A stretch of 64,000 nt of DNA, taken from positions 124,001 to 188,000 of the forward strand of contig NZ_JAAKZI010000002.1 in assembly GCF_011045165.1 (NCBI RefSeq). The letters run 5' to 3'. Position numbers and translations under genes: made by a program. Below are positions 7,591 to 61,162 of this stretch, in pieces. Under the pieces are notes generated by a model. That model was not told the origin of the DNA and did not search any database. It was given only the letters and a program-made list of their open reading frames with translations. Numbering within the stretch: position 1 is the first letter of the stretch; each line of letters begins with the position of its first letter. This stretch comes from Arthrobacter silviterrae (GTDB lineage: Bacteria > Actinomycetota > Actinomycetes > Actinomycetales > Micrococcaceae).

Positions 7591-8556
7591 ATGACCACAG
7601 GAAAGCCCTTGCTGCCGGACCATGGGGAGACGCGCCAGCCGGCGGACCCCGTACGGCTGGCCGAGGCGCACTGGCGGGCCCTCGAGGCGGCGCACCAGGA
7701 ACGCGTGGACCGCTACGCGTTGCCCTACCTGGCGCGGCGTTCCGCCGGCCAAAAGCACCCTGTCGAGGACTTCCTGTTCACCTACTACACTCAAAAGCCG
7801 GGCCAGCTGCGCCGCTGGCATCCCGGCGCCGGCGTCGTTTTGCATGGCCAGGGCGCCCAGGAACGGTTGGGCTGGAAGTTTTACCGCCCCGCGGACTGCG
7901 GCGGCACCCTGGTTCCGGAGGCACCACACCCGGGTGCCGGCGTCGTGCTTGACACGGAAAAGTTTCTGGCGCAGCGCCGGGAGGCCGTGGACTTTGCCCG
8001 GATCATCCTGGGCCGGACTGCGCTGCGGCCGGCCCAATTTGGCTGCTTTGGGCTGCACGAATGGGCCATGGTCTACAAGCAGGAAGCCAACCAGGTCCGG
8101 CACGAATACCTGCAGCTGCGGCTGGGTTCCGCCGGCACGGATGGGGTGGTGGAGGGCAACAGGATCCGCTGCACGCACTTTGACGCCTACCGTTTCTACA
8201 CCCCGCAGGCCGTCGGGCTCAACGAACTCAGGCCGACGCGGGAAAATCAGCGGGACATGGAACAGCCCGGCTGCCTGCACGCGAACATGGACCTGTACAA
8301 GTGGGCGTACAAGCTGTCGCCCCTGCTGCCGAGTGAATTGGTGATGGACTGTTTTGAGCTGTCGTGGCGGATCCGGGCCATGGACATGCAGGCATCGCCG
8401 TACGACCTCGCGGCGTGGGGCTATCCTCCGATCCAGATCGAGACCGCGGCGGGCAAGGCCGACTATGTGGCGCAACAGCGCGGCTTTGCGGCGGAATCGG
8501 CAGTGCTGAGGGGCCGGCTCAGCGCAGCCCTGGACGCCGCCACCGCCACCTCCTAA
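7591..8556 (+). CDS. Conserved actinobacterial protein (often annotated 3-methyladenine DNA glycosylase)
   Basis: 321 residues, soluble, no signal peptide. Distinctive parts are HPVEDFLFTYYTQKPGQLRRWHPG, LHEWAMVYKQ, RIRCTHFDAYRFYTP, and a C-terminal helical part with ELVMDCFELSWRIRAMDMQASPYDL. From memory this family is widespread in actinobacteria and is commonly labelled 3-methyladenine DNA glycosylase, but I see neither an AlkA helix-hairpin-helix nor a Tag zinc site, so the catalytic label is doubtful. Transcription is probably leaderless. The 32-bp repeat array begins 2 nt after its stop codon. Confidence 0.8.
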   Translation: MTTGKPLLPDHGETRQPADPVRLAEAHWRALEAAHQERVDRYALPYLARRSAGQKHPVEDFLFTYYTQKPGQLRRWHPGAGVVLHGQGAQERLGWKFYRPADCGGTLVPEAPHPGAGVVLDTEKFLAQRREAVDFARIILGRTALRPAQFGCFGLHEWAMVYKQEANQVRHEYLQLRLGSAGTDGVVEGNRIRCTHFDAYRFYTPQAVGLNELRPTRENQRDMEQPGCLHANMDLYKWAYKLSPLLPSELVMDCFELSWRIRAMDMQASPYDLAAWGYPPIQIETAAGKADYVAQQRGFAAESAVLRGRLSAALDAATATS

Positions 8557-8558
8557 CT

Positions 8559-8714
8559 GACGCTCGGTTGCAACCGGGGCACTTTTCCACGACGCTCGGT
8601 TGCAACCGGGGCACTATTTGGGAACGCTCCGAGCATTCCGCGGGAGCGTCGGGAAAAACACCCCAAATGGTGAGGGAGCGTCGGGAAAAACGCCGCCAAA
8701 CATGAGGGAGCGTC
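8559..8714. repeat. 32-bp-period intergenic repeat array (locus A: 3 reverse + 3 forward units)
   Basis: Cores GACGCTC start at 8559 and 8591, with a variant ACGCTC at 8624. After a centre near 8635, forward cores GAGCGTC start at 8644, 8676 and 8708. Every step within an arm is 32 bp, allowing the first-base slip at 8624. Forward units read TGAGGGAGCGTCGGGAAAAA; the first two reverse units carry an internal palindrome CGGTTGCAACCG. The array fills the gap between convergent genes: it begins 2 nt after the TAA at 8554-8556 and ends where the minus-strand stop begins at 8715. Related arrays are at 22182, 23934 and 51154. Confidence 0.85.
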
Positions 8715-9695
8715 TCAGGTGAGGGCGGCGGCGAGTTTGGGTGCCAGGCGTTTCGCCATGAGGGCGTAGCCCGCATTGTCCGGATGCAGGGTGTCGGGCA
8801 GCCGGTCAATCGCCTCCTGCGCGGTCAAAACGGAGGCGCCGTCGATGCAATGCAACCGGGTGTCGCCGCGGCGGCACAGCTCCGCAACCACATCCGCAGT
8901 GGCCGCCCGGTAATCGACCAGGGTCCAGCCGACGTTGTTGGGCTTGTTTTCGCGCGGCGGCGACAGCACGGGCATGATCACCACGATCGGCACCTGGGGG
9001 TGTGCCCTGCGGACTGTGGAAATGAAGCTGAAGACGGCCCCGGCGTATGTCCGTTCGGAATACGCTGACGCGTTGTAGCTGTTGATCCCCACGCACAGGC
9101 TGATGATGTCAAGGGGCGTCTGGGCGATGGTGTCCGCAGCCACGGGGTCCAGCTGGCATTCGCCGGCCAGTCCCAGGTTGCGTAGCTGCCAGCCGTTGCT
9201 GCGCGCCACGAGGGCCGGCCACGTCTCCGTAGGGCCGTCGGCCTGCTGGCAGTGTGTGATGGAACTGCCGTAGGCGAGCCACCGCGGCCCGGACGGGGCG
9301 GACGGCGCCGTCCCGTCGCCGTCGAACGTGGCAGTCTTGAGCCGGAAGTCGCCAAAGTGCGGCAGCCAAACCTCCACAAGGGAGCCTGCGGAGGGCGCAT
9401 CCACCCGCACCACGTGGCGATGGCTGCCCGCGGCGGGCAGCCGGTGGACCAGGGCACCGTCCACCAGGACGTCATACGGCGCGGCATCCGCGGCGCCTTC
9501 CCCCTCTAGCACCAGCGTGCCGCTGCCCGTGCGCCAGCCTGCGCGGACGCCGGCGGCCATGGCGGCCCTGTTGGCCAGGCTGTCGGTGGACGGCGGCAGG
9601 AAGCCGGACGGGTCCAGCCTGAGGAAGCGTTGGGCGCCGTCATGTTCCGTGTCCACGGAAAACATGCCGGACCACTGCGCGGGAACCAAAACCAT
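8715..9695 (-). CDS. SGNH/GDSL-family esterase, possible sialate or carbohydrate O-acetylesterase
   Basis: 326 residues from ATG 9695. The N-terminal 140 residues form a beta-rich accessory domain. The SGNH hydrolase follows: block I WLAYGSSITHC with nucleophile Ser, block II Gly in GLAGECQLD, block III Asn in CVGINSYN, and block V DTLHPDNAGY with the catalytic Asp and His. No signal peptide, so it should act in the cytosol. It lies 84 bp downstream of the sialidase gene on the same strand. Some sialic acids are O-acetylated, so an esterase acting on released sugar is a reasonable guess, not shown by sequence. Confidence 0.85.
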   Translation of the reverse strand: MVLVPAQWSGMFSVDTEHDGAQRFLRLDPSGFLPPSTDSLANRAAMAAGVRAGWRTGSGTLVLEGEGAADAAPYDVLVDGALVHRLPAAGSHRHVVRVDAPSAGSLVEVWLPHFGDFRLKTATFDGDGTAPSAPSGPRWLAYGSSITHCQQADGPTETWPALVARSNGWQLRNLGLAGECQLDPVAADTIAQTPLDIISLCVGINSYNASAYSERTYAGAVFSFISTVRRAHPQVPIVVIMPVLSPPRENKPNNVGWTLVDYRAATADVVAELCRRGDTRLHCIDGASVLTAQEAIDRLPDTLHPDNAGYALMAKRLAPKLAAALT

Positions 9696-13816: not shown

Positions 13817-16135
13817 ATGGCTGAGATTTCCACCGAGTCCGCCCAAAAGTTCAACATCGACACGGTTGAAAACGCCGCTGCCACGCCCGACGTCGAGCTG
13901 CCCTGGGCCGAGCTGGGCCTGAAGCAAAACGAGTACGACGACGTCGTGAAGGTTTTGGGGCGACGCCCCACTGGCGCTGAGCTCGCCATGTACTCCGTCA
14001 TGTGGAGCGAGCACTGCTCCTACAAGTCCTCCAAGAACCACCTCCGCCAGTTTGGCGAAAAGGTCACCGAGGAGATGAAGAAGGACATGCTGGTGGGCAT
14101 CGGCGAAAACGCCGGCGTCACCAACCTGGGGGACGGCTGGGCCGTCACGTTCAAGATCGAAAGCCACAATTCGCCGTCGTTCGTGGAGCCCTACCAGGGT
14201 GCCGCCACCGGCATCGGCGGCATTGTCCGCGACATCATCTCGATGGGCGCCCGCCCCGTGGCCGTCATGGACCCGCTGCGCTTTGGCGCCATCGACCACC
14301 CGGACACGGCCCGCGTCATGCACGGCGCCGTGGCAGGCATTGGCGGCTACGGCAACTCCCTGGGCCTGCCGAACATTGGCGGCGAGATGGTCTTCGACCC
14401 GATCTACCAGGGCAACCCGCTGGTCAACGCGCTGGCCGTGGGCGTGATGCGCCACGAGGACATCCGCCTGGCCAACGCCTCCGGCCTGGGCAACAAGGTG
14501 GTGCTGTTCGGCGCGCGCACCGGCGGCGACGGCATTGGCGGCGCCTCCGTGCTGGCTTCGGAGTCCTTCGATTCCACCAAGCCCTCCAAGCGCCCGGCCG
14601 TGCAGGTGGGCGACCCCTTCGCCGAAAAGGTGCTCATTGAGTGCTGCCTGGAGCTGTTCAAGGGCTCCCTCGTGGAGGGCATCCAGGACCTGGGCGCCGC
14701 CGGCATCTCCTGCGCCACGTCGGAGCTGGCCTCCAACGGCGACGGCGGCATGGAGGTCGAGCTGACGTCCGTGCTGCTGCGCGACCCCACCCTCACACCG
14801 GGCGAAATCCTCATGTCCGAGTCCCAGGAACGCATGATGGCCGTGGTCTCCCCCGAGAACGTGGCCGCATTTGAGGCCGTCATGGACAAGTGGGCCGTGG
14901 AGTATTCCTGGCTGGGCGAGGTCACCGGCACCGGCCGCCTCATTATCAAGTGGGAGGGCGAGGTGATTGTCGACGTCGATCCCCGCACCGTGGCGCACGA
15001 CGGCCCGGTCTACGACCGCCCCTACGCCCGCCCGGAATGGCAGGACGCCCTGCAGGCGGACACCTTCACCGGCTCCGTGCAGGACGCCGGCCGCCCCGCC
15101 ACCGCGGAAGAGCTCAAGGCAGCCGTCCTGGAGCTCATGGCCTCCCCCAACATGTGCTCGAAGGACTGGATCACCAACCAGTACGACCGCTACGTGGGCG
15201 GCAACACCGCCATGGCCTTCCCCGACGACGCCGGAGTGATCCGCGTGGACGAGGAAACCGGGCTGGGCGTTGCCCTGGCCACCGACGCCAACGGCCGCTA
15301 CACGTTCCTGGACCCGTACCACGGCGCGCAGCTGGCCCTGGCCGAGGCCTACCGCAACGTGGCCACCTCCGGCGCCATCCCGATGGCCGTCAGCGACTGC
15401 CTGAACTTCGGCTCCCCCGAGGACCCCAACGTCATGTGGCAGCTGGCGGAGGCCATCCGCGGCCTGTCCGACGCCTGCATGGAACTGGGCATCCCGGTCA
15501 CCGGCGGCAACGTCTCCCTCTACAACCAGACGGGCACCACCCCCATCCACCCCACCCCCGTGGTGGCGGTCCTGGGCAAGTTCGACGACGTTGCCCGGCG
15601 CACGCCGTCGGGCTGGGCCGAGGACGGCCAGGCCATCTACCTGCTGGGCACCACGGCCGCCGAACTGGACGGCTCCGAGTGGGCCAACCTCCGCGGGCAC
15701 CTGGGCGGCGCCGCACCCGCGGTTGACCTGAAGCGCGAGCGGGAACTGGGTGAGATCCTCATCAATGCCTCACGCGACGGCATGATTGACTCGGCCCACG
15801 ACCTGTCCGAGGGCGGCCTTGCCGCCGCCCTGGTGGAGTCTTCGCTGCGGAACAACACCGGCGCCCGCGTGGCGCTGGACGAGGTGGCCGCACGGGACGG
15901 CGTGGACATCTTCACGCTGCTGTTCTCCGAGACGCAGGGCCGGGCCATCGTATCCGTCCCGCGCAGCGAAGAGGTCAGGTTCAACGATATGTGCACCGCC
16001 CGCCACTTCCCGGTCTCCCGGATCGGCGTGGTGGACGCCGCCGGCGGCGCCCTTGACCTGCAGGGCCTGTTCAGCGCCCCGCTGGACCAGCTCCGCGAGG
16101 CGCATGAGGGAACGCTGACCAAGCACTTCGGCTAA
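13817..16135 (+). CDS. purL: Phosphoribosylformylglycinamidine synthase, PurL synthetase subunit (small type)
   Basis: 772 residues, the small PurL without fused PurS or PurQ domains. Recognised by [16 protein letters not shown] near the N-terminus, [25 protein letters not shown], and duplicated AIRS-type halves, the second with [20 protein letters not shown] and [18 protein letters not shown]-dependent conversion of FGAR to FGAM. Last gene of purSQL; a long inverted repeat (16144-16219) starts 9 nt after its stop. Long antisense frames over this gene are composition artefacts. Confidence 0.97.
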
Positions 16136-16143
16136 CCCCCTCC

Positions 16144-16219
16144 GCAACTGTGAGTCAGAAACTGCACGGGAATCAACCAAAACAGGTTGATCATGATGCA
16201 GTTTCTGACTCACAGTTGC
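16144..16219. repeat. Dispersed inverted-repeat element, copy 1 (convergent junction)
   Basis: A perfect 23-bp inverted repeat: the left arm 16144-16166 starts GCAACTGTGAGTCAG and the right arm is 16197-16219, with a 30-nt spacer. It lies between the purL stop (16135) and the stop of the minus-strand gene, whose TTA begins at 16220 directly behind the right arm. A near-identical element occupies another convergent junction at 29613-29685. No T-run follows, so a classical terminator is unlikely though an end-forming hairpin is possible. Confidence 0.85.
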
Positions 16220-16807
16220 TTAAGCGGTGAGGGATTGGGCCGCCCGCAGGTACGCCATTGTCACGTTGCGCTGGGTCAGCTTTGTGACCGGGGAGCCCAG
16301 CCTGAAGAGCAGGCCCGAGGGCTTGCTGAAGGCAAGGAGCCTGAACCAGACGCCGCCGTCGGGCGTTTTCATGGCCAGGAATGCCTCCTCGCCAAGGGCC
16401 GGGTGTCCCGGGAGCGTGCCGTAGCCAAACCCGGCCAGCTGCACCTCGGTGCCGTCGCTGCGCAGCACGCCCGCGGGCTCCAGCGCCCAGACCACCTCGC
16501 ACGGAACCGGCAGCCTGAGGTCACCGACACCGAAGCCGCTGACCACCCGGGCACCCACCACGGCGCGCGGGGGTGCCGACACCCGCAGGCCCGCGCGGCG
16601 CTGGATTTGCCACGTCAGGATGCCCTCGGCCAGTGCCGTGAAGGCGGCGTCCCCGGTGCCCACCCGCAGTTGCCTGTCCACATGGTCAAAGCCGTCCGGC
16701 CACGCGCCGGTTCCCGTGGGCAGCCCGGCGTTCAGGCGGGTCCTGCCCATCTCCGGGTAGTTCAGGCCCGGCTTCCCCTGGCCGGACCGGCTATTCCTTG
16801 GCAACAC
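16220..16807 (-). CDS. DUF1990-family protein
   Basis: 195 residues. The hallmark NYPEMGRTR near the N-terminus, the WQIQRRAGLRV segment, and ALEPAGVLRSDGTEVQLAGFGYGTLPGHPALGEEAF match the DUF1990 family found in actinobacteria and plants. Biochemical role unknown. ATG 16807 is preferred because NYPEMG belongs to the domain and must be included; this overlaps the previous gene's stop (16791) by 17 nt. No signal peptide or membrane helix. Confidence 0.8.
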   Translation of the reverse strand: MLPRNSRSGQGKPGLNYPEMGRTRLNAGLPTGTGAWPDGFDHVDRQLRVGTGDAAFTALAEGILTWQIQRRAGLRVSAPPRAVVGARVVSGFGVGDLRLPVPCEVVWALEPAGVLRSDGTEVQLAGFGYGTLPGHPALGEEAFLAMKTPDGGVWFRLLAFSKPSGLLFRLGSPVTKLTQRNVTMAYLRAAQSLTA

Positions 16808-21973: not shown

Positions 21974-22181
21974 GGGATCCTCCCCCTTGCTCATAAAGTT
22001 GAGCCGGTCGCTGCATGGGTCGGCGGAACGTTCCGCCGTACACCGTCCGGACACGAAAATGCCCCTTGCAAACTGCCATCCGTCTCCAGCGCTGCTGTAC
22101 CCCGGCAGGCAATCAAGGGGGTCTTGCGTCCCAAGTTTACCGGAATGGAAAGGCGGGCGCACATTAAGCCCCCTCCCATGC

Positions 22182-22257
22182 GACGCTCCATCACTTCTGG
22201 CGGGTTTTCCCGCGACGCTCCATCACCTCTGGCGGGTTTTCCCGCGACGCTCCATCA
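22182..22257. repeat. 32-bp-period intergenic repeat array (locus B: 3 units, one orientation)
   Basis: GACGCTC cores start at 22182, 22214 and 22246, exactly 32 bp apart; units 1 and 2 differ at a single base. Read on the minus strand the unit is TGATGGAGCGTCGCGGGAAA followed by ACCCGCCAGAGG. The last unit contains the TGA stop of the FAD monooxygenase gene (22255-22257) in its TGATGG part. Rest of the gap (21974-22181): the purA ribosome-binding site and no other clear signal. Confidence 0.85.
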
Positions 22258-23526
22258 CGGCCGGTCTGCCCGCCGCTCCCGGTGAGGCCTGCCGATGAGC
22301 AGCGTGGCCAGGTAGCGGTGGGGATTGCGGCTGCGGAACGCCGCACTGAGCACCTGCCGGAGTGCTTCGGCGTCGGGTCCAGGGGCGGACAGCGCGGCCT
22401 GTGCCCGTGTTTGGCGCAACGTCACCTCACCCGCCGCGTGGCGAACGGCGTGGTAGTCCTCGAGTGAGTCGAAGGGTTCCCTGCCGTCGAGCACGGCGGC
22501 CAAGCGGAAGGCGAGGTCGACGGCGTCGAGCATTCCCGTATTCAGCGAGGAACCGCCCGCGGAGAACACATGGGCGGCGTCGCCGGCAAGGAACACCCTG
22601 CCCGCCCTGTACCGCGCGGCCTGGCGGCTGTTGGCCACCGTGGAGCGCAGCCATTCGCCGCCGCTGGCCGGAAGGTCTGCGCCCAGCACACGCTTGATGC
22701 TGGCCTGCAATTCCTCGAGAGAAATCTGCGCGGCAGCTTCCTGCGTGCCGCGTGGCTCCTGCGAAGCGACGATGTACAGGTCCTTTGGGGCGCCGCGGTC
22801 CAGTTTCGACAGGGGGGCAATCGTGAACGAACCTGTTGGCGTGTGGTTCGGCTGGAACAATGCCAGCCGCTGGCCGCCGGGAAGCTCCACGGCATTCCGG
22901 GTCCGGCTGACTAAAGTTGGGGGAACCGTGACGTGCCCGATCCGCACCAGCTGGTTCCCCGTGGTCCCCGGAAAGTCAATGCCCAGCTGGTGCCGGACGA
23001 AGCTGTGGGCGCCGTCGCACCCGGCCAGGAATCCGGTGCCGAGGGTGTAGCTGCCGCCGGCGGAGGAAACCTCCACGAGCACGCGTTCGCCGTCGTCCTG
23101 GAAGCCGGTAACGGTGTGCCCGCGGCGGATGTCAACACCGGTGGCGCGGGCGCGGGCTTCCAACAGCTGTTCCAGCCGGCGTTGCGGTATCGGCAGGATT
23201 TTCAGCGCATTGGGCCGGAGCGGGTTGAGCCGCAGCGGGAGGGCGCCGAAAGAGTAGCGGGGCGCGGGGATGGCGTGGAGGCCCCTTTGCCCCCGCAGCA
23301 GGCCACGCTTCGCAAGCACGGTTGCGATCTCGCCCACCAGGCCGTTGCCTTTCGGCATGGCACTGGGCTCGGCGGCCTGCTCGAGGACCGTCGAGGCGAT
23401 GCCCGCGGCGGCCAGCTCGCAGGCAAGCATCAACCCGACCGGGCCGGCACCGGCAATGACCACGGGCTGTCTGTCCTGGATGCCGTCCCCGGCCATTTTC
23501 ATCCCACTTTCGCCGCTCTCGATCAC
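22255..23526 (-). CDS. FAD-dependent aromatic-type monooxygenase
   Basis: 423 residues. Class A flavoprotein hydroxylase motifs: VVIAGAGPVGLMLACELAAAG (GxGxxG, near residue 22), AGCDGAHSFVRHQLGIDFPG (DG motif), and RVFLAGDAAHVFSAGGSSLNTGMLDA (GD motif binding the FAD ribityl chain). The substrate-binding part is variable; relatives hydroxylate phenols, polyketides or antibiotics such as tetracycline and rifampicin. No pathway partners are nearby. Start ATG 23526 is one option; homology begins at residue ~20. Its stop codon sits inside a 32-bp repeat unit. Confidence 0.9.
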   Translation of the reverse strand: MIESGESGMKMAGDGIQDRQPVVIAGAGPVGLMLACELAAAGIASTVLEQAAEPSAMPKGNGLVGEIATVLAKRGLLRGQRGLHAIPAPRYSFGALPLRLNPLRPNALKILPIPQRRLEQLLEARARATGVDIRRGHTVTGFQDDGERVLVEVSSAGGSYTLGTGFLAGCDGAHSFVRHQLGIDFPGTTGNQLVRIGHVTVPPTLVSRTRNAVELPGGQRLALFQPNHTPTGSFTIAPLSKLDRGAPKDLYIVASQEPRGTQEAAAQISLEELQASIKRVLGADLPASGGEWLRSTVANSRQAARYRAGRVFLAGDAAHVFSAGGSSLNTGMLDAVDLAFRLAAVLDGREPFDSLEDYHAVRHAAGEVTLRQTRAQAALSAPGPDAEALRQVLSAAFRSRNPHRYLATLLIGRPHRERRADRP

Positions 23527-23545
23527 GTCAACCGGCTGGGCGCGC

Positions 23546-23881
23546 TCAGCCTGCCGTGAACGCCAGGGCGGCGTCCGCCAGCGCCGGCCAGTGCTCGACG
23601 GAGGCTAGCGGCACCACCACCCAGTCCTTGAATGGCCGTTTCATTCCGGAGGGATCAAACAGCACGGCGTTCGGGAGGGCGAGGGCCTCGGTGTGCCCCG
23701 TTGAATCGCGGCCCAGCTTGAACGCGACGGCGTCCCCGTGAAGGCAGCCGATGGCCTTGCTGCCCACCATCAGCGACGTGGCGCCGAACATTTTGCCGAC
23801 GGTGACCCCGGCATCCGCAACATCAGCGGCGAGGGTGTCAAAAGCGGCAACGGCAGCGGGCGAGGGAACAAGTTTCTCCAT
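23546..23881 (-). CDS. TfoX N-terminal domain protein
   Basis: 111 residues from ATG 23881. Shows VTVGKMFGATSLMVGSKAIGCLHGDAVAFKL and a C-terminal FDPSGMKRPFKDWVVVP, as in stand-alone TfoX/Sxy N-terminal proteins. In Gram-negatives TfoX regulates competence; stand-alone actinobacterial members have no established role. The extended frame to 24025 runs through the 32-bp repeats and encodes repeat-derived peptide, so it is rejected. The stop is 19 bp from the monooxygenase start. Confidence 0.85.
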   Translation of the reverse strand: MEKLVPSPAAVAAFDTLAADVADAGVTVGKMFGATSLMVGSKAIGCLHGDAVAFKLGRDSTGHTEALALPNAVLFDPSGMKRPFKDWVVVPLASVEHWPALADAALAFTAG

Positions 23882-23933
23882 GCCTGAATCATGCCCTGCC
23901 CTCGGCCCGGCCGTCGAGAGGCGGCGCCAACGG

Positions 23934-24041
23934 TGATGCCGCGTCCCGCAAAAAGCCGCGAAAGGTGATGCGGCGTCCCGCAAAAACCCGCAAAAGGTGA
24001 TGGAGCGTCGGGGAAAAAGCCGCAAAAGGTGATGGAGCGTC
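23934..24041. repeat. 32-bp-period intergenic repeat array (locus C: 4 units, one orientation)
   Basis: TGATG starts at 23934, 23966, 23998 and 24030, exactly 32 bp apart. Units 3 and 4 read TGATGGAGCGTCGGGGA, with AAAAGCCGCAAAAGG completing unit 3; units 1 and 2 are degenerate (GCGTCCCGC). Lies between the nitrite reductase stop (24083) and the TfoX-like start (23881). The last unit runs into the G-rich tract at 24042. Confidence 0.85.
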
Positions 24042-24080
24042 GGGGAGGGAGGGAGGGAGGGAGGGAGGGGGGGAGGGGTG
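24042..24080 (+). repeat. GGGA tandem tract
   Basis: About eight runs of three or more G separated by single A bases, ending 2 bp before the nitrite reductase stop codon. The plus strand could fold as a G-quadruplex. The same bases are C-rich in the nitrite reductase mRNA, just after its stop. Confidence 0.8.
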
Positions 24081-29604: not shown

Positions 29605-29612
29605 CCCTCCCC

Positions 29613-29685
29613 CAACTGTGAGTCAGAAACCGCATCGAATGGGCCGTATTTTGGCGAATTCCGTGCAGTTTCTGACTCACAGTTG
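29613..29685. repeat. Dispersed inverted-repeat element, copy 2 (convergent junction)
   Basis: Left arm 29613-29634 (CAACTGTGAGTCAGAAACCG...) and right arm 29664-29685 pair over 22 bp with one mismatch and a 29-nt spacer. The arms are nearly identical to copy 1 at 16144-16219 while the spacer differs. As there, it fills a convergent junction and its right arm directly abuts a TTA stop of a minus-strand gene (29686-29688). Confidence 0.85.
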
Positions 29686-30110
29686 TTAGAGGGCGGCTTC
29701 GATCGCGGCTGACGCCAACGGATCGGAGTCGTTCAGGAACGTGGAAATGCGGGCTGCCTCGTCGGATTCACCGATGGCACCGGCGGCCCGGCCCAGCGCA
29801 TAAAGGGCGCGCAGGAAGCCACGGTTGCCTTCATGCGACCACGGGACGGGGCCTGTGCCACGCCAGCCGTTGCGGCGCAAGGCGTCCAGGCCGCGGTGGT
29901 AGCCGGTGCGCGCGTAGGCATAGGACTCAATGGTCCGGCCCTCCGCATACGCCTCGTCCGCCAAAATGGCCCAGAGCAGCGACGACGTCGGGTGCTTGGC
30001 GGCCAGGTCCACCGCCTCATCGCCGGCGGCCAGCCGTGCGTCAACGTCCTCCTCGGCCGGGAGCAGCGTGGGCTCCGGGCCGAGGAGATTCCGGCGGAAT
30101 TCCTCGCTCA

Positions 30111-35106: not shown

Positions 35107-35125
35107 GCCCACCCCTTCGCCGAGC

Positions 35126-35172
35126 GGGCATTTAACGTGGATGTTGCGCCGCAACATGCCCGTTAAGTGCCC
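35126..35172. repeat. Large hairpin at a convergent gene junction
   Basis: Outer arms GGGCATTTAACG (35126-35137) and CGTTAAGTGCCC (35161-35172) pair with one wobble; inner arms ATGTTGCG (35141-35148) and CGCAACAT (35150-35157) are perfect. Sequence is unrelated to the elements at 16144 and 29613, but the position is the same kind: between convergent stops (35106 plus, 35229 minus). No T-run next to it. Confidence 0.75.
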
Positions 35173-35228
35173 GTTGGCGCGAGGGGGGGGTGATGGATAC
35201 CCGACGCCGGATCGCGGGCCACCGGCTG

Positions 35229-49402: not shown

Positions 49403-51148
49403 ATGAACGTCACTGAAGAATTCCGCGCGGCCCGCAACAAGCTGCTGGAAATGCGCCTGGACAACGCCCGGGCACAACGGGAGTTCACATGGCCGGCGTT
49501 CACCGAGTTCAACTTTGCGCTGGACTGGATCGACGCGATCGCCCGCGACCCCGCCACGGGGAACAACCCCGCACTGGTCATCGTGGAACAGGACGGCACC
49601 GCCACCAGGCGCAGCTTCTCGGAGCTGTCCCAACGCTCAAACCAGGTGGCCAACTGGCTGCGGAGCCACGGCATCCGGCGCGGCGAGCACATGATCATCA
49701 TGCTGGGCAACCAGGTGGAGCTGTGGGAAGTGATGCTGGCCTGCATCAAGCTGGGCGTTGTCATGATCCCCACCACCACCATGATGGGCCCGGCGGACCT
49801 GCGCGACAGGGTGGAGCGCGGCGGTGCCCACTGGGTAACGGCGCGCGCCGAAGACGCCCCCAAGTTTGCCGACGTGCCCGGGGACTACACCCTGGTGGGC
49901 GTCGGCGCCGGCAGCACGGATGCGGAGGCCGGGCGGCCGGTCCTCGACTTCGCGGATTCGGCCGGGAGCCCGGAAAACTTCACCCCGGACGCCCCCACCA
50001 AGGCAGACGAAACCATGCTGCTCTACTTCACCTCCGGCACCACGTCCAAGGCCAAGCTGGTGGAGCACACGCACACCTCCTATCCCGTGGGCCACCTCTC
50101 CACCATGTTCTGGATCGGTCTGGAGCCGGGCGACGTCCACCTCAACGTTGCCTCCCCCGGCTGGGCCAAGCACGCCTGGTCCAATGTGTTCACACCGTGG
50201 ATCGCCGAGGCCTGCGTGTTCATCTACAACTACACGCGCTTTGACGCCGCCGCCCTCATGGCCCAGATGGACGCCGAACATGTCACCAGCTTCTGCGCCC
50301 CGCCCACCGTGTGGCGCATGCTCATCCAGGCGGACCTGACCCTGCTGAAGCACCCGCCCACCAAGGTCGTCTCGGCCGGCGAACCGCTCAATGCCGAGGT
50401 CATCGGGCAGGTGGAGCGTGCCTGGGGCCAGCTGATCCGCGACGGCTTCGGCCAGACGGAGACCACCGTGCAGGTCGCCAACACGCCCGGCCAGCCCATC
50501 AAGATCGGCTCCATGGGCCGCCCGCTCCCGGGCTACGACGTCGTCCTCCTGGACCTGATCACCGGTGAGGAGAAGGACGACGGCGAGCTTTGCCTGCGCT
50601 TGGACCCCGCCCCCGTGGGGCTCACCAAGGGCTACTACGGGGATCCGGAGAAGACGGCCAAGGCCTTCCGCGGCGGCTACTACCACACGGGCGACGTTGC
50701 CAGCCGGGACGAAAACGGCATCCTGACCTACGTGGGCCGCAGCGACGACGTGTTCAAGTCCTCGGACTACCGCCTCTCTCCCTTCGAGCTGGAGAGCGTG
50801 CTCATTGAACACCCGGCCGTGGCCGAGGCTGCCGTGGTCCCGTCGCCCGATGCGCTGCGGCTGAGCGTGCCCAAGGCCTACGTGGTGCTGGCGGCGGCGT
50901 ATGAACCCAGCGACGCGCTGGCGGGCGAAATTTTCGCCTACTGCCGTGAGCACCTGCCGGCCTACAAGCGGATCCGCCGGCTGGAATTTGCTGAGCTGCC
51001 CAAGACCATCTCCGGCAAGATCCGCCGCGTGGAACTGCGGGCCAACGAGGTGGCGCGCCACGGCAGCGGCGGTGCGGTGGCCGGCACACCCACCCCGAAC
51101 GGCCTGGGCCGTGAATACCTGGACACGGAATTCCTCGAAACCTCCTAA
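49403..51148 (+). CDS. Acyl-CoA synthetase (AMP-forming, medium-chain type)
   Basis: 581 residues from ATG 49403 (AAAGGTGA upstream). ANL-family motifs: P-loop LLYFTSGTTSKAKLVEH, A5 GFGQTET, A7 hinge YHTGDVASRDENG, A8 GRSDDVFKSSDYRLSPFELE, A10 Lys in PKTISGKIRRVELR. The long N-terminus NFALDWIDAIA is typical of medium-chain acyl-CoA and benzoate-type ligases. Activates a carboxylic acid to its CoA thioester; chain preference unknown. The 32-bp array D begins 5 bp after its stop. Confidence 0.92.
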   Translation: MNVTEEFRAARNKLLEMRLDNARAQREFTWPAFTEFNFALDWIDAIARDPATGNNPALVIVEQDGTATRRSFSELSQRSNQVANWLRSHGIRRGEHMIIMLGNQVELWEVMLACIKLGVVMIPTTTMMGPADLRDRVERGGAHWVTARAEDAPKFADVPGDYTLVGVGAGSTDAEAGRPVLDFADSAGSPENFTPDAPTKADETMLLYFTSGTTSKAKLVEHTHTSYPVGHLSTMFWIGLEPGDVHLNVASPGWAKHAWSNVFTPWIAEACVFIYNYTRFDAAALMAQMDAEHVTSFCAPPTVWRMLIQADLTLLKHPPTKVVSAGEPLNAEVIGQVERAWGQLIRDGFGQTETTVQVANTPGQPIKIGSMGRPLPGYDVVLLDLITGEEKDDGELCLRLDPAPVGLTKGYYGDPEKTAKAFRGGYYHTGDVASRDENGILTYVGRSDDVFKSSDYRLSPFELESVLIEHPAVAEAAVVPSPDALRLSVPKAYVVLAAAYEPSDALAGEIFAYCREHLPAYKRIRRLEFAELPKTISGKIRRVELRANEVARHGSGGAVAGTPTPNGLGREYLDTEFLETS

Positions 51149-51153
51149 AAACC

Positions 51154-51314
51154 CTCCCTCATCAAATGGGCACAAACCCCGACCCTCCCTCATCAAATGG
51201 CATGTTTTCGCGAACGCTCACTCACCACTTTTTAAAGCTGAGGGAGCGTCGCCGGAAACACCGCGAAACGTGAGGGAGGGCCGCCCCAAACACCGCAAAA
51301 GGTGAGGGAGCGTC
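51154..51314. repeat. 32-bp-period intergenic repeat array (locus D: 3 reverse + 3 forward units)
   Basis: Reverse units CTCCCTCA start at 51154 and 51185, with variant CTCACTCA at 51217 (steps 31 and 32). Forward units TGAGGGAG start at 51239, 51271 and 51303 (steps 32 and 32). Units contain GAGCGTCGCCGGAAACACCG and GGTGAGGGAGCGTCGG. Same mirrored plan as locus A. Lies between the acyl-CoA synthetase stop and the exonuclease III gene, which are both on the plus strand. The rest of the gap (51315-51412) shows no other gene. Confidence 0.85.
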
Positions 51315-51412
51315 GGAGTGGGGGAACCTTGGAGGTCGTGGGGGCGCTGGCGGGGAGTGACCTCCTTGACCGATCGACTCGGCCGGAACACGAGTTCTTC
51401 AGCTTTAGTTGA

Positions 51413-60775: not shown

Positions 60776-60851
60776 TGGTGGCTCCGACCGGCGTCGATCC
60801 GGTGACCTTTCGATTTTCAGTCGAACGCTCTACCAACTGAGCTACAGAGCC
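60776..60851 (-). tRNA. tRNA-Phe (GAA)
   Basis: 76 nt including an encoded CCA. Acceptor GGCTCTG pairs with CGGAGCC (one wobble), D-arm GCTCAGTTGGTAGAGC, anticodon stem-loop with GAA, T-arm with GGATCGACGCC-type loop. Gene 3' end is directly before the terminator at 60747. Confidence 0.97.
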
Positions 60852-60911
60852 TTGGTGAACTGCGAAAGCCTTTGTCACCAGATCTCCTAAAAAGATTCCA
60901 GGAAACCTCAG

Positions 60912-60985
60912 CGACCCTGACGGGACTCGAACCCGCGACCTCCGCCGTGACAGGGCGGCGCGCTAACCAACTGCGCTACAGGGCC
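60912..60985 (-). tRNA. tRNA-Asp (GTC)
   Basis: 74 nt without encoded CCA. Acceptor GGCCCTG with CAGGGTC (one wobble), D-arm GCGCAGTTGGTTAGCGC, anticodon GTC in the loop CTGTCAC, T-arm GCGGGTTCGAGTCCCGT. Confidence 0.97.
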
Positions 60986-61089
60986 TTACTTTAATTGCTA
61001 TTTTTTGTTGCCAATTTCGCGTTTAGTGCGAAATTCACGAGTAATATCGTATCAGCCTTTTTTGGACCAATTGACCACCACTCGCAAAG

Positions 61090-61162
61090 TACCCCCAACG
61101 GGATTCGAACCCGTGCCGCCGCCGTGAAAGGGCGGTGTCCTAGGCCGCTAGACGATGGGGGC
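61090..61162 (-). tRNA. tRNA-Glu (TTC)
   Basis: 73 nt without encoded CCA. Acceptor GCCCCCA with TGGGGGT (terminal G-U), anticodon TTC in the loop CTTTCAC, T-arm ACGGGTTCGAATCCCGT. Leads the tRNA cluster Glu-Asp-Phe, all on the minus strand and probably one transcript. Confidence 0.97.

Follow-up and report, generated by a model that had tools for sequence, protein, structure and literature searches.

The window, by which we mean the whole stretch of 64,000 nucleotides of Arthrobacter silviterrae DNA that was analysed, carries between two convergent genes an array of a 32-bp repeat occupying the entire gap from the TAA of the left gene (8554-8556) to the stop codon of the right gene (8715-8717). 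By direct reading, the core ACGCTC starts at 8560, 8592 and 8624 and the core GAGCGT at 8644, 8676 and 8708, with 32 bp between successive cores throughout. A first-pass annotation had described three reverse and three forward cores at 32-bp steps filling a convergent gap; all six cores were recovered on re-reading, two of them given there as 8559 and 8591 from the preceding G, and the two stop codons do bracket all of the cores. The array and the related and unrelated repeats of the window are as follows.

8559..8634, minus strand: left arm, two complete units plus the head of a third; head GCAACCGAGCGT, tail end GCCCCGGTT
8638..8714, plus strand: right arm, two units with head GTGAGGGAGCGT and a terminal head adjoining the stop codon
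16132..16231, unstranded: long hairpin of a different family, L225 type (CAACTGTGAGTCAGAAACTGCA...), between convergent genes
about 22163..22260, minus strand: second array site, reverse units only
about 23929..24049, plus strand: third array site, forward units only
29605..29693, unstranded: second copy of the L225-type hairpin, between two convergent genes
35108..35190, unstranded: copy of the L224-type hairpin, between two convergent genes
51148..51322, unstranded: fourth array site, mirrored, immediately behind the stop of the gene ending at 51148

The array at 8559-8714 folds strongly (z -4.8 as RNA, -4.4 as DNA) and matches no Rfam family. The 20-mer that the first-pass annotation had proposed as the unit matches three times in the window at up to three mismatches, compared with 0.01 matches expected from shuffles. 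Its view that the array has no spacers and is not CRISPR agrees with what we find: the units run head to tail, what lies between heads is the shared tail consensus, and the unique spacers between repeats that mark a CRISPR array are absent from the 32-bp arrays. The second and third sites are possibly the left and right halves of one array split by two genes, the outward-facing halves at 22163-24049 enclosing two minus-strand genes, one FAD-hydroxylase-like and one small. At two other loci (L073, L080), other genes likewise lie between outward-facing arms, as if inserted at the centre of an array; that genes besides the nuclease gene described below occupy such a position speaks against the nuclease model. 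Elsewhere in the window, a GGGA run at 24045-24080, immediately after the third site, could form a G-quadruplex, and Rfam places three consecutive tRNA genes on the minus strand at 60779-61162.

The repeat is spread over the whole A. silviterrae genome (4.29 Mb in 106 contigs). The pattern GGAGCGT-N25-GGAGCGT with at most two mismatches occurs at 92 + 82 places, against 16 + 22 for the backward control, and the exact pattern GAGCGT-N26-GAGCGT at 35 + 43 against 0 + 0. The first-pass annotation had allowed that a genome search might return only four loci with no periodicity elsewhere, which does not hold. We fetched 44 stretches around two-core places, selected therefore for matching the repeat pattern, and trained on them a position-weight matrix that gives 183 unit matches in 59 clusters, with 28 mirrored centres, over these stretches and the window. 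The unit is 32 bp with a consensus of about GTGAGGGAGCGTCGGGGAAAACACCGCGAAAG; conservation is highest at positions 1-12, a head of about [GC]TG[AC]-NNNN-GCGT[CT], and the tail is looser. Each array ends in a head, and a stop codon often lies no more than a few tens of bases from the outermost one; where an array is mirrored, its two arms meet head to head, with a spacing of 3-4 nt at 12 of the 28 centres. Palindromes form between facing heads, and the junction CGGTTGCAACCG is palindromic in some units of the subtype that we call A. An uninterrupted central stem of at least nine is found in only 16 of the 28 mirrored arrays and a T-run beside the stem in none. On the latter count we rejected the idea that all arrays are intrinsic terminators, and the earlier statement that the array is not a simple terminator stands.

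Two arrays of A. silviterrae are split in a particular way, having between their arms a gene of an AbiEi-like/DUF559 family, DUF559 being of the Vsr/PD-(D/E)XK type (L037, L067). The two proteins match DUF559 (PF04480) with E 1.3e-5 and 1.9e-7, at 25.4 and 31.4 bits above the curated cut-off of 20.6, and the N-terminal half matches AbiEi (PADLOC, E 7.4e-14); an NCBIfam scan gave only DUF559 matches below cut-off. A profile of 37 sequences compared with the PDB finds 3hrl, a solved endonuclease-like DUF559 protein, with E 9.5e-4, and more weakly (E 0.25) 3r3p, entitled “mobile intron protein”, which we take to be a Vsr-like homing endonuclease. In the alignment D236, G250, R265 and W274 do not vary, and D249, H253 and D262 hardly do, a pattern consistent with Vsr-like nucleases. 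The DUF559 motif is usually E-x-D; since Q-x-D stands in its place here, the activity of the putative nuclease is uncertain. An AlphaFold2 model was unusable (mean pLDDT 49).

At E <= 1e-3 A. silviterrae has 11 relatives of this family, among which only the L037/L067 pair is more than 40% identical (67%). Close relatives (E <= 1e-60) occur in 21 of 23 genomes of the genus, 28 genes in total at 1-3 per genome, and across the bacterial family in 125 of 395 genomes and 10 of 32 genera. Many of the relatives in the bacterial family, among the matches listed, have one inner stop codon, which suggests that decay of the gene is frequent. A phage or plasmid origin found no support: no relative was found in viral contigs, three plasmid records carry one at 32-38% identity, and one phage record does at 32%.

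The nesting of the putative nuclease gene within arrays extends well beyond A. silviterrae. At 38 nuclease loci, 28 from the genus and 10 from another genus, the flanks repeat most strongly at a lag of 32 nt in 37 (the exception is L255), compared with 0 of 59 control stretches, which are mostly coding and hence unmatched for intergenic DNA. A rule-based finder places heads to the left and right of the gene at 34 of the 38. At L235, L252, L258 and L276 it detects them on one flank only, though L252 and L276 do show them by eye. Among 111 loci found by the repeat pattern in GTDB genomes (nearly all Arthrobacter, with Pseudarthrobacter, Specibacter and two MAGs), five contain the gene, including those of Arthrobacter pascens DSM 20545 and A. 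rhizosphaerae, and in four of the five a head-like TGAGGGAG opens with the TGA stop codon of the gene. The gene lies between an alpha-glucosidase-like gene and an inositol-phosphate synthase at 21 of the 38 loci and beside the synthase at six more; with 27 of 38 loci thus next to one gene, the enzyme mostly stays put while the arrays are many. At the A. silviterrae nuclease 2 locus, two other genomes of the genus, G129 and G130, have a gene-free array between the same neighbours. From sequence, then, 32-bp arrays are found genome-wide behind stop codons, with a putative nuclease gene inside one of them in nearly every species examined.

The heads around the gene differ between species, the nuclease flanks elsewhere following the same 32-bp plan with GTGATACSGCGTC, CTGCGATRGCGTC, GTGATGCGGCGTC, GTGAGCGAGCGTC, GTGACCGGGCGTC and more. 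We made two-core patterns from three heads read off nuclease flanks and searched them in the 23 genus genomes. For ATACSGCGT, the two predicted genomes have 78 (G129) and 55 (G130) pairs, G024 has 4 and the other 20 have none. For GATGCSGCGT, the five genomes expected to carry it have 53, 34, 29, 26 and 19 pairs; five others have 6, 3, 2, 1 and 1, and 13 have none. Pairs of GCGATRGCGT number 28 in G024 and 13 in G132, as predicted, with 8 in G126, 3 in G121, 1 in G122 and 0 in 18; here the backward control rivals the signal (16 vs 13 in G132, 7 vs 8 in G126) and is uninformative because the reversed pattern also fits the same arrays. G024 and G132 each have two nucleases that differ in head, and arrays of either head type are found across each genome. 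G123 and G127 lack a close nuclease, and in them all four head patterns together gave 2 and 0 matches, at most one per pattern. The exception is G124, where the nuclease flanks have AACCGA heads and the arrays, among the matches listed, mainly CTGCAGGAGCGT. On a tree of the nucleases, head type changes 20 times (minimum 16, shuffled mean 28.6, 0 of 200 shuffles as low), the head labels being assigned by eye and the agreement being favoured by near copies that are not independent (G134/G135; G133/Arthrobacter sp. HY1533, L243 and L186).

The same correspondence appears within A. silviterrae itself. On clustering, 165 units separate into two subtypes, one of 56 and one of 109 units (silhouette 0.147, compared with at most 0.041 for shuffled columns), and the flank units of nuclease 1 are all of subtype A (3/3) and those of nuclease 2 all of subtype B (5/5), these eight units being non-independent. 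Of 46 multi-unit arrays, 36 are of one pure subtype. The array at 8559-8714 is mixed: both full units of its left arm resemble subtype A, to which the one scored unit is assigned, and both scored units of its right arm are of subtype B. Heads read from the flanks of the putative nuclease genes are thus predictive of array heads across the genome in most species tested, G124 excepted.

The arrays also have a marked preference for certain gene settings, with genes called by a custom codon-score caller and not by a standard program. In A. silviterrae, 28 of the 54 gene pairs with an array are convergent, 25 co-directional and 1 divergent, compared with 22, 133 and 41 among array-free pairs of the same stretches (Fisher, p 1.1e-9 for convergent enrichment and 3.2e-4 for divergent depletion). 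The 111 GTDB loci give 41, 54 and 2 (n = 97) compared with 93, 346 and 96 for pairs without an array (p 2.7e-7 and 6.2e-6). In G129 and G130 together, where the head is a different one, the counts are 25, 14 and 0 (n = 39) compared with 6, 51 and 13 (p 1.3e-9 for convergent). The G129 contig C1 (754,192 bp; L311-L313), possibly a second replicon, also bears arrays.

To what extent are the positions themselves shared between species? Behind the left gene of the 8559-8714 locus an array is, by eye, present in 11 and absent in 12 of the 23 genus genomes. Both flanking genes are kept in six genomes by tblastn, with an array between them in A. silviterrae, G131, G132, G122 and G128 and none in G129. 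The heads behind the left gene differ: GCAACCGAGCGT and GTGAGGGAGCGT in A. silviterrae, GTGATGCGGCGTC in G132, GTGATAGAGCGTC in G122, GTGCTGCCGCGT in G128 and CTGCAGGAGCGTC in G124. More broadly, arrays with ATACS heads lie in a gap identical to that of an A. silviterrae array in 7 of 23 cases for G129 and 6 of 19 for G130, with one flank only shared in 6 and 5 more, and 12 of 20 G129 stretches have a flank in common with a G130 array stretch. In one such shared gap (L055 vs L325 and L336) the arrays differ in unit number and tails as well. Part of the positions are thus old while heads are species-specific, either because copying has exchanged the heads on the spot or because each has co-adapted singly, and the differences in unit number and tails at the L055 gap favour copying. 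The conserved positions argue that the arrays move rarely, which we count against the nuclease model proposed below. MITEs are recognised by the terminal inverted repeats of a DDE transposon and by target-site duplication; of possible bearing on such a relation, the arrays are mirrored, and G129 has both flanking genes of the 8559-8714 gap without an array. By eye, an ordinary hairpin adjoins the A. silviterrae array L055, and in G113 the array behind the left gene of the 8559-8714 locus has a central hairpin followed by a T-run.

Several other, more distant DUF559 paralogues of A. silviterrae have flanking repeats of their own. The 32-bp matrix finds arrays at only 2 of the 11 relatives, and comparison of the two flanks of the other nine reveals different repeats at several: common repeats are clear at L224, L225, L228 and L231 (best E 1e-15, 9e-10, 9e-10 and 2e-26), weaker at L226 and L227 and short at L230, with none convincing at L229 and L232. 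In a 339-kb sample, flank copies of L224, L225 and L228 were found elsewhere, and none for the other six paralogues. The hairpins of the window belong here: that of 16132-16231 flanks the paralogue L225 (G000:C96:24206-25105) and that of 35108-35190 the paralogue L224 (G000:C24:24030-24929). A further repeat type, CGCCATTTCGACGGTTCC, lies on both flanks of a distant DUF559/AbiEi_4 gene of Arthrobacter rhizosphaerae (L194, 3338-4273).

Judged from sequence comparison, the arrays are probably a dispersed, mostly non-coding repeat population served by a resident nuclease, much as in REPIN-RAYT systems but with an unrelated enzyme. The observations suggest that a repeat population spread over the genome and an enzyme belonging to it form a partnership, so far undescribed. 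In the most likely mechanism the protein, with its AbiEi-like N-terminal part and Vsr-like C-terminal part, would recognise the array head, and the putative nuclease would nick or cut there. Repair would then copy or homogenise sequence between arrays, and as the specificity of the protein drifts, the head would change in concert across arrays. A copy landing in another gap could found a new array, and arrays behind stop codons would be tolerated, or perhaps be useful as 3'-end elements. In its fullest form, which we put forward tentatively as one possibility, AbiEi-like/DUF559 proteins of the Micrococcaceae would drive a second, independently evolved REPIN-like system in which each paralogue keeps its own repeats and copies or homogenises them by nick-induced recombination at the head, such that a drift in specificity rewrites dozens of conserved intergenic sites in concert.

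While it is feasible that the protein is instead a DNA-binding regulator or nucleoid-type protein, with the arrays as selected sites whose heads co-evolve with it without any copying, we consider this unlikely. Positions partly conserved across species despite changed heads, an AbiEi-like N-terminal part and multiple sites at a fixed 32-bp pitch would all fit such a protein, and the first-pass annotation had offered a DNA-binding-protein array, its 32-bp pitch read as about three helical turns, as one possibility, which may be part of the picture. The avoidance of divergent (promoter) gaps in all three data sets, however, is not what a regulator would lead one to expect, the changes in unit number and tails at the L055 gap go beyond what site-by-site adaptation needs, and the C-terminal part is nuclease-like.

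One could also speculate that the arrays are 3'-end elements owned by the host, in one of which the nuclease lives as a homing endonuclease. The position of the gene at the centre of an array, the weak match to 3r3p and the gene-free arrays of G129 and G130 between the nuclease 2 neighbours are consistent with this. Intact targets of a homing endonuclease should be rare, however, whereas the enzyme is accompanied by dozens of arrays that bear its head and are not occupied by the gene. The gene has only 1-3 copies per genome and mostly keeps one place, and where it has no close representative (G123, G127) no head pattern gives more than a single match; we therefore regard homing as improbable. 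It is very improbable that the arrays amount to no more than two-way transcription terminators or mRNA 3'-end structures that multiply through slippage and recombination, the nuclease link being a by-product: the location behind stop codons, the enrichment in convergent gaps, the strong folding of 8559-8714 and the hairpin with T-run of G113 speak for this reading, but central stems are often short or interrupted and T-runs absent from them in A. silviterrae, the array L055 has a separate ordinary hairpin beside it, and the reading offers no account of head letters that track the nuclease. A 3'-end role for the arrays is nevertheless possible, though it would leave the cognate heads unexplained.

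Were the partnership of arrays and resident nuclease confirmed, a second kind of REPIN-like population with an unrelated enzyme would mean that such populations arise repeatedly, and some DUF559/AbiEi-like proteins now annotated as of unknown function would gain a role. The dozens of nucleases, each paired with a four-letter head variant, would further constitute a natural experiment on enzyme specificity. In the open-licence PMC literature we found neither this repeat nor a pairing of DUF559 proteins with repeats described, although a description may exist elsewhere in print.

Among known systems, two share features with the protein. Vsr-like/DUF559 homing endonucleases such as 3r3p resemble it in having a nuclease-like domain that matches weakly (E 0.25) and, here, a gene inside its candidate target; they differ in that the present system has many unoccupied candidate sites, no intron and a mostly fixed locus. 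The AbiEi antitoxins of type IV toxin-antitoxin systems are similar to the N-terminal part, which is here fused to a nuclease-like part. For the arrays, the first-pass annotation had suggested a REP/BIME-like family, and this was right in direction, the repeats being dispersed, inverted and extragenic. The system is not a member of the REP/REPIN-RAYT group, as the unit is not palindromic and no Y1 transposase accompanies it: PF01797 (Y1, HUH) has 0 matches in A. silviterrae, and the same search is positive in 5 of 14 control genomes.

REP/REPIN-RAYT systems (PMC3733652, PMC8049555; compare PMC3116915) consist of dispersed extragenic inverted repeats with enzyme genes flanked by them. The arrays agree with them in having many dispersed extragenic copies that form inverted pairs and lie downstream of stop codons and between convergent genes, in flanking the gene of a cognate enzyme, and in that this enzyme is usually of low copy number and in a conserved place. 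They differ in the enzyme family, AbiEi-like/DUF559 in place of a Y1/HUH transposase, in the unit, a 32-bp non-palindromic head-tail tandem unit in place of a short palindrome, and in the replacement of heads between species at some conserved positions. The CGTC-tagged REPs of Di Nocera and co-workers (2013), described in PMC3733652 as being without a dedicated transposase, mostly from alpha-Proteobacteria, and built of stems of 8-9 bp, loops of 4-5 nt and a short tail, offer a second comparison. Our heads resemble them in ending in GCGTC, in standing mostly head-to-head and in being extragenic, whereas the 32-bp unit is not such a hairpin. Should a second kind of REPIN-like population be confirmed, the spread of REPs that lack a known transposase could also be tested from a new angle.
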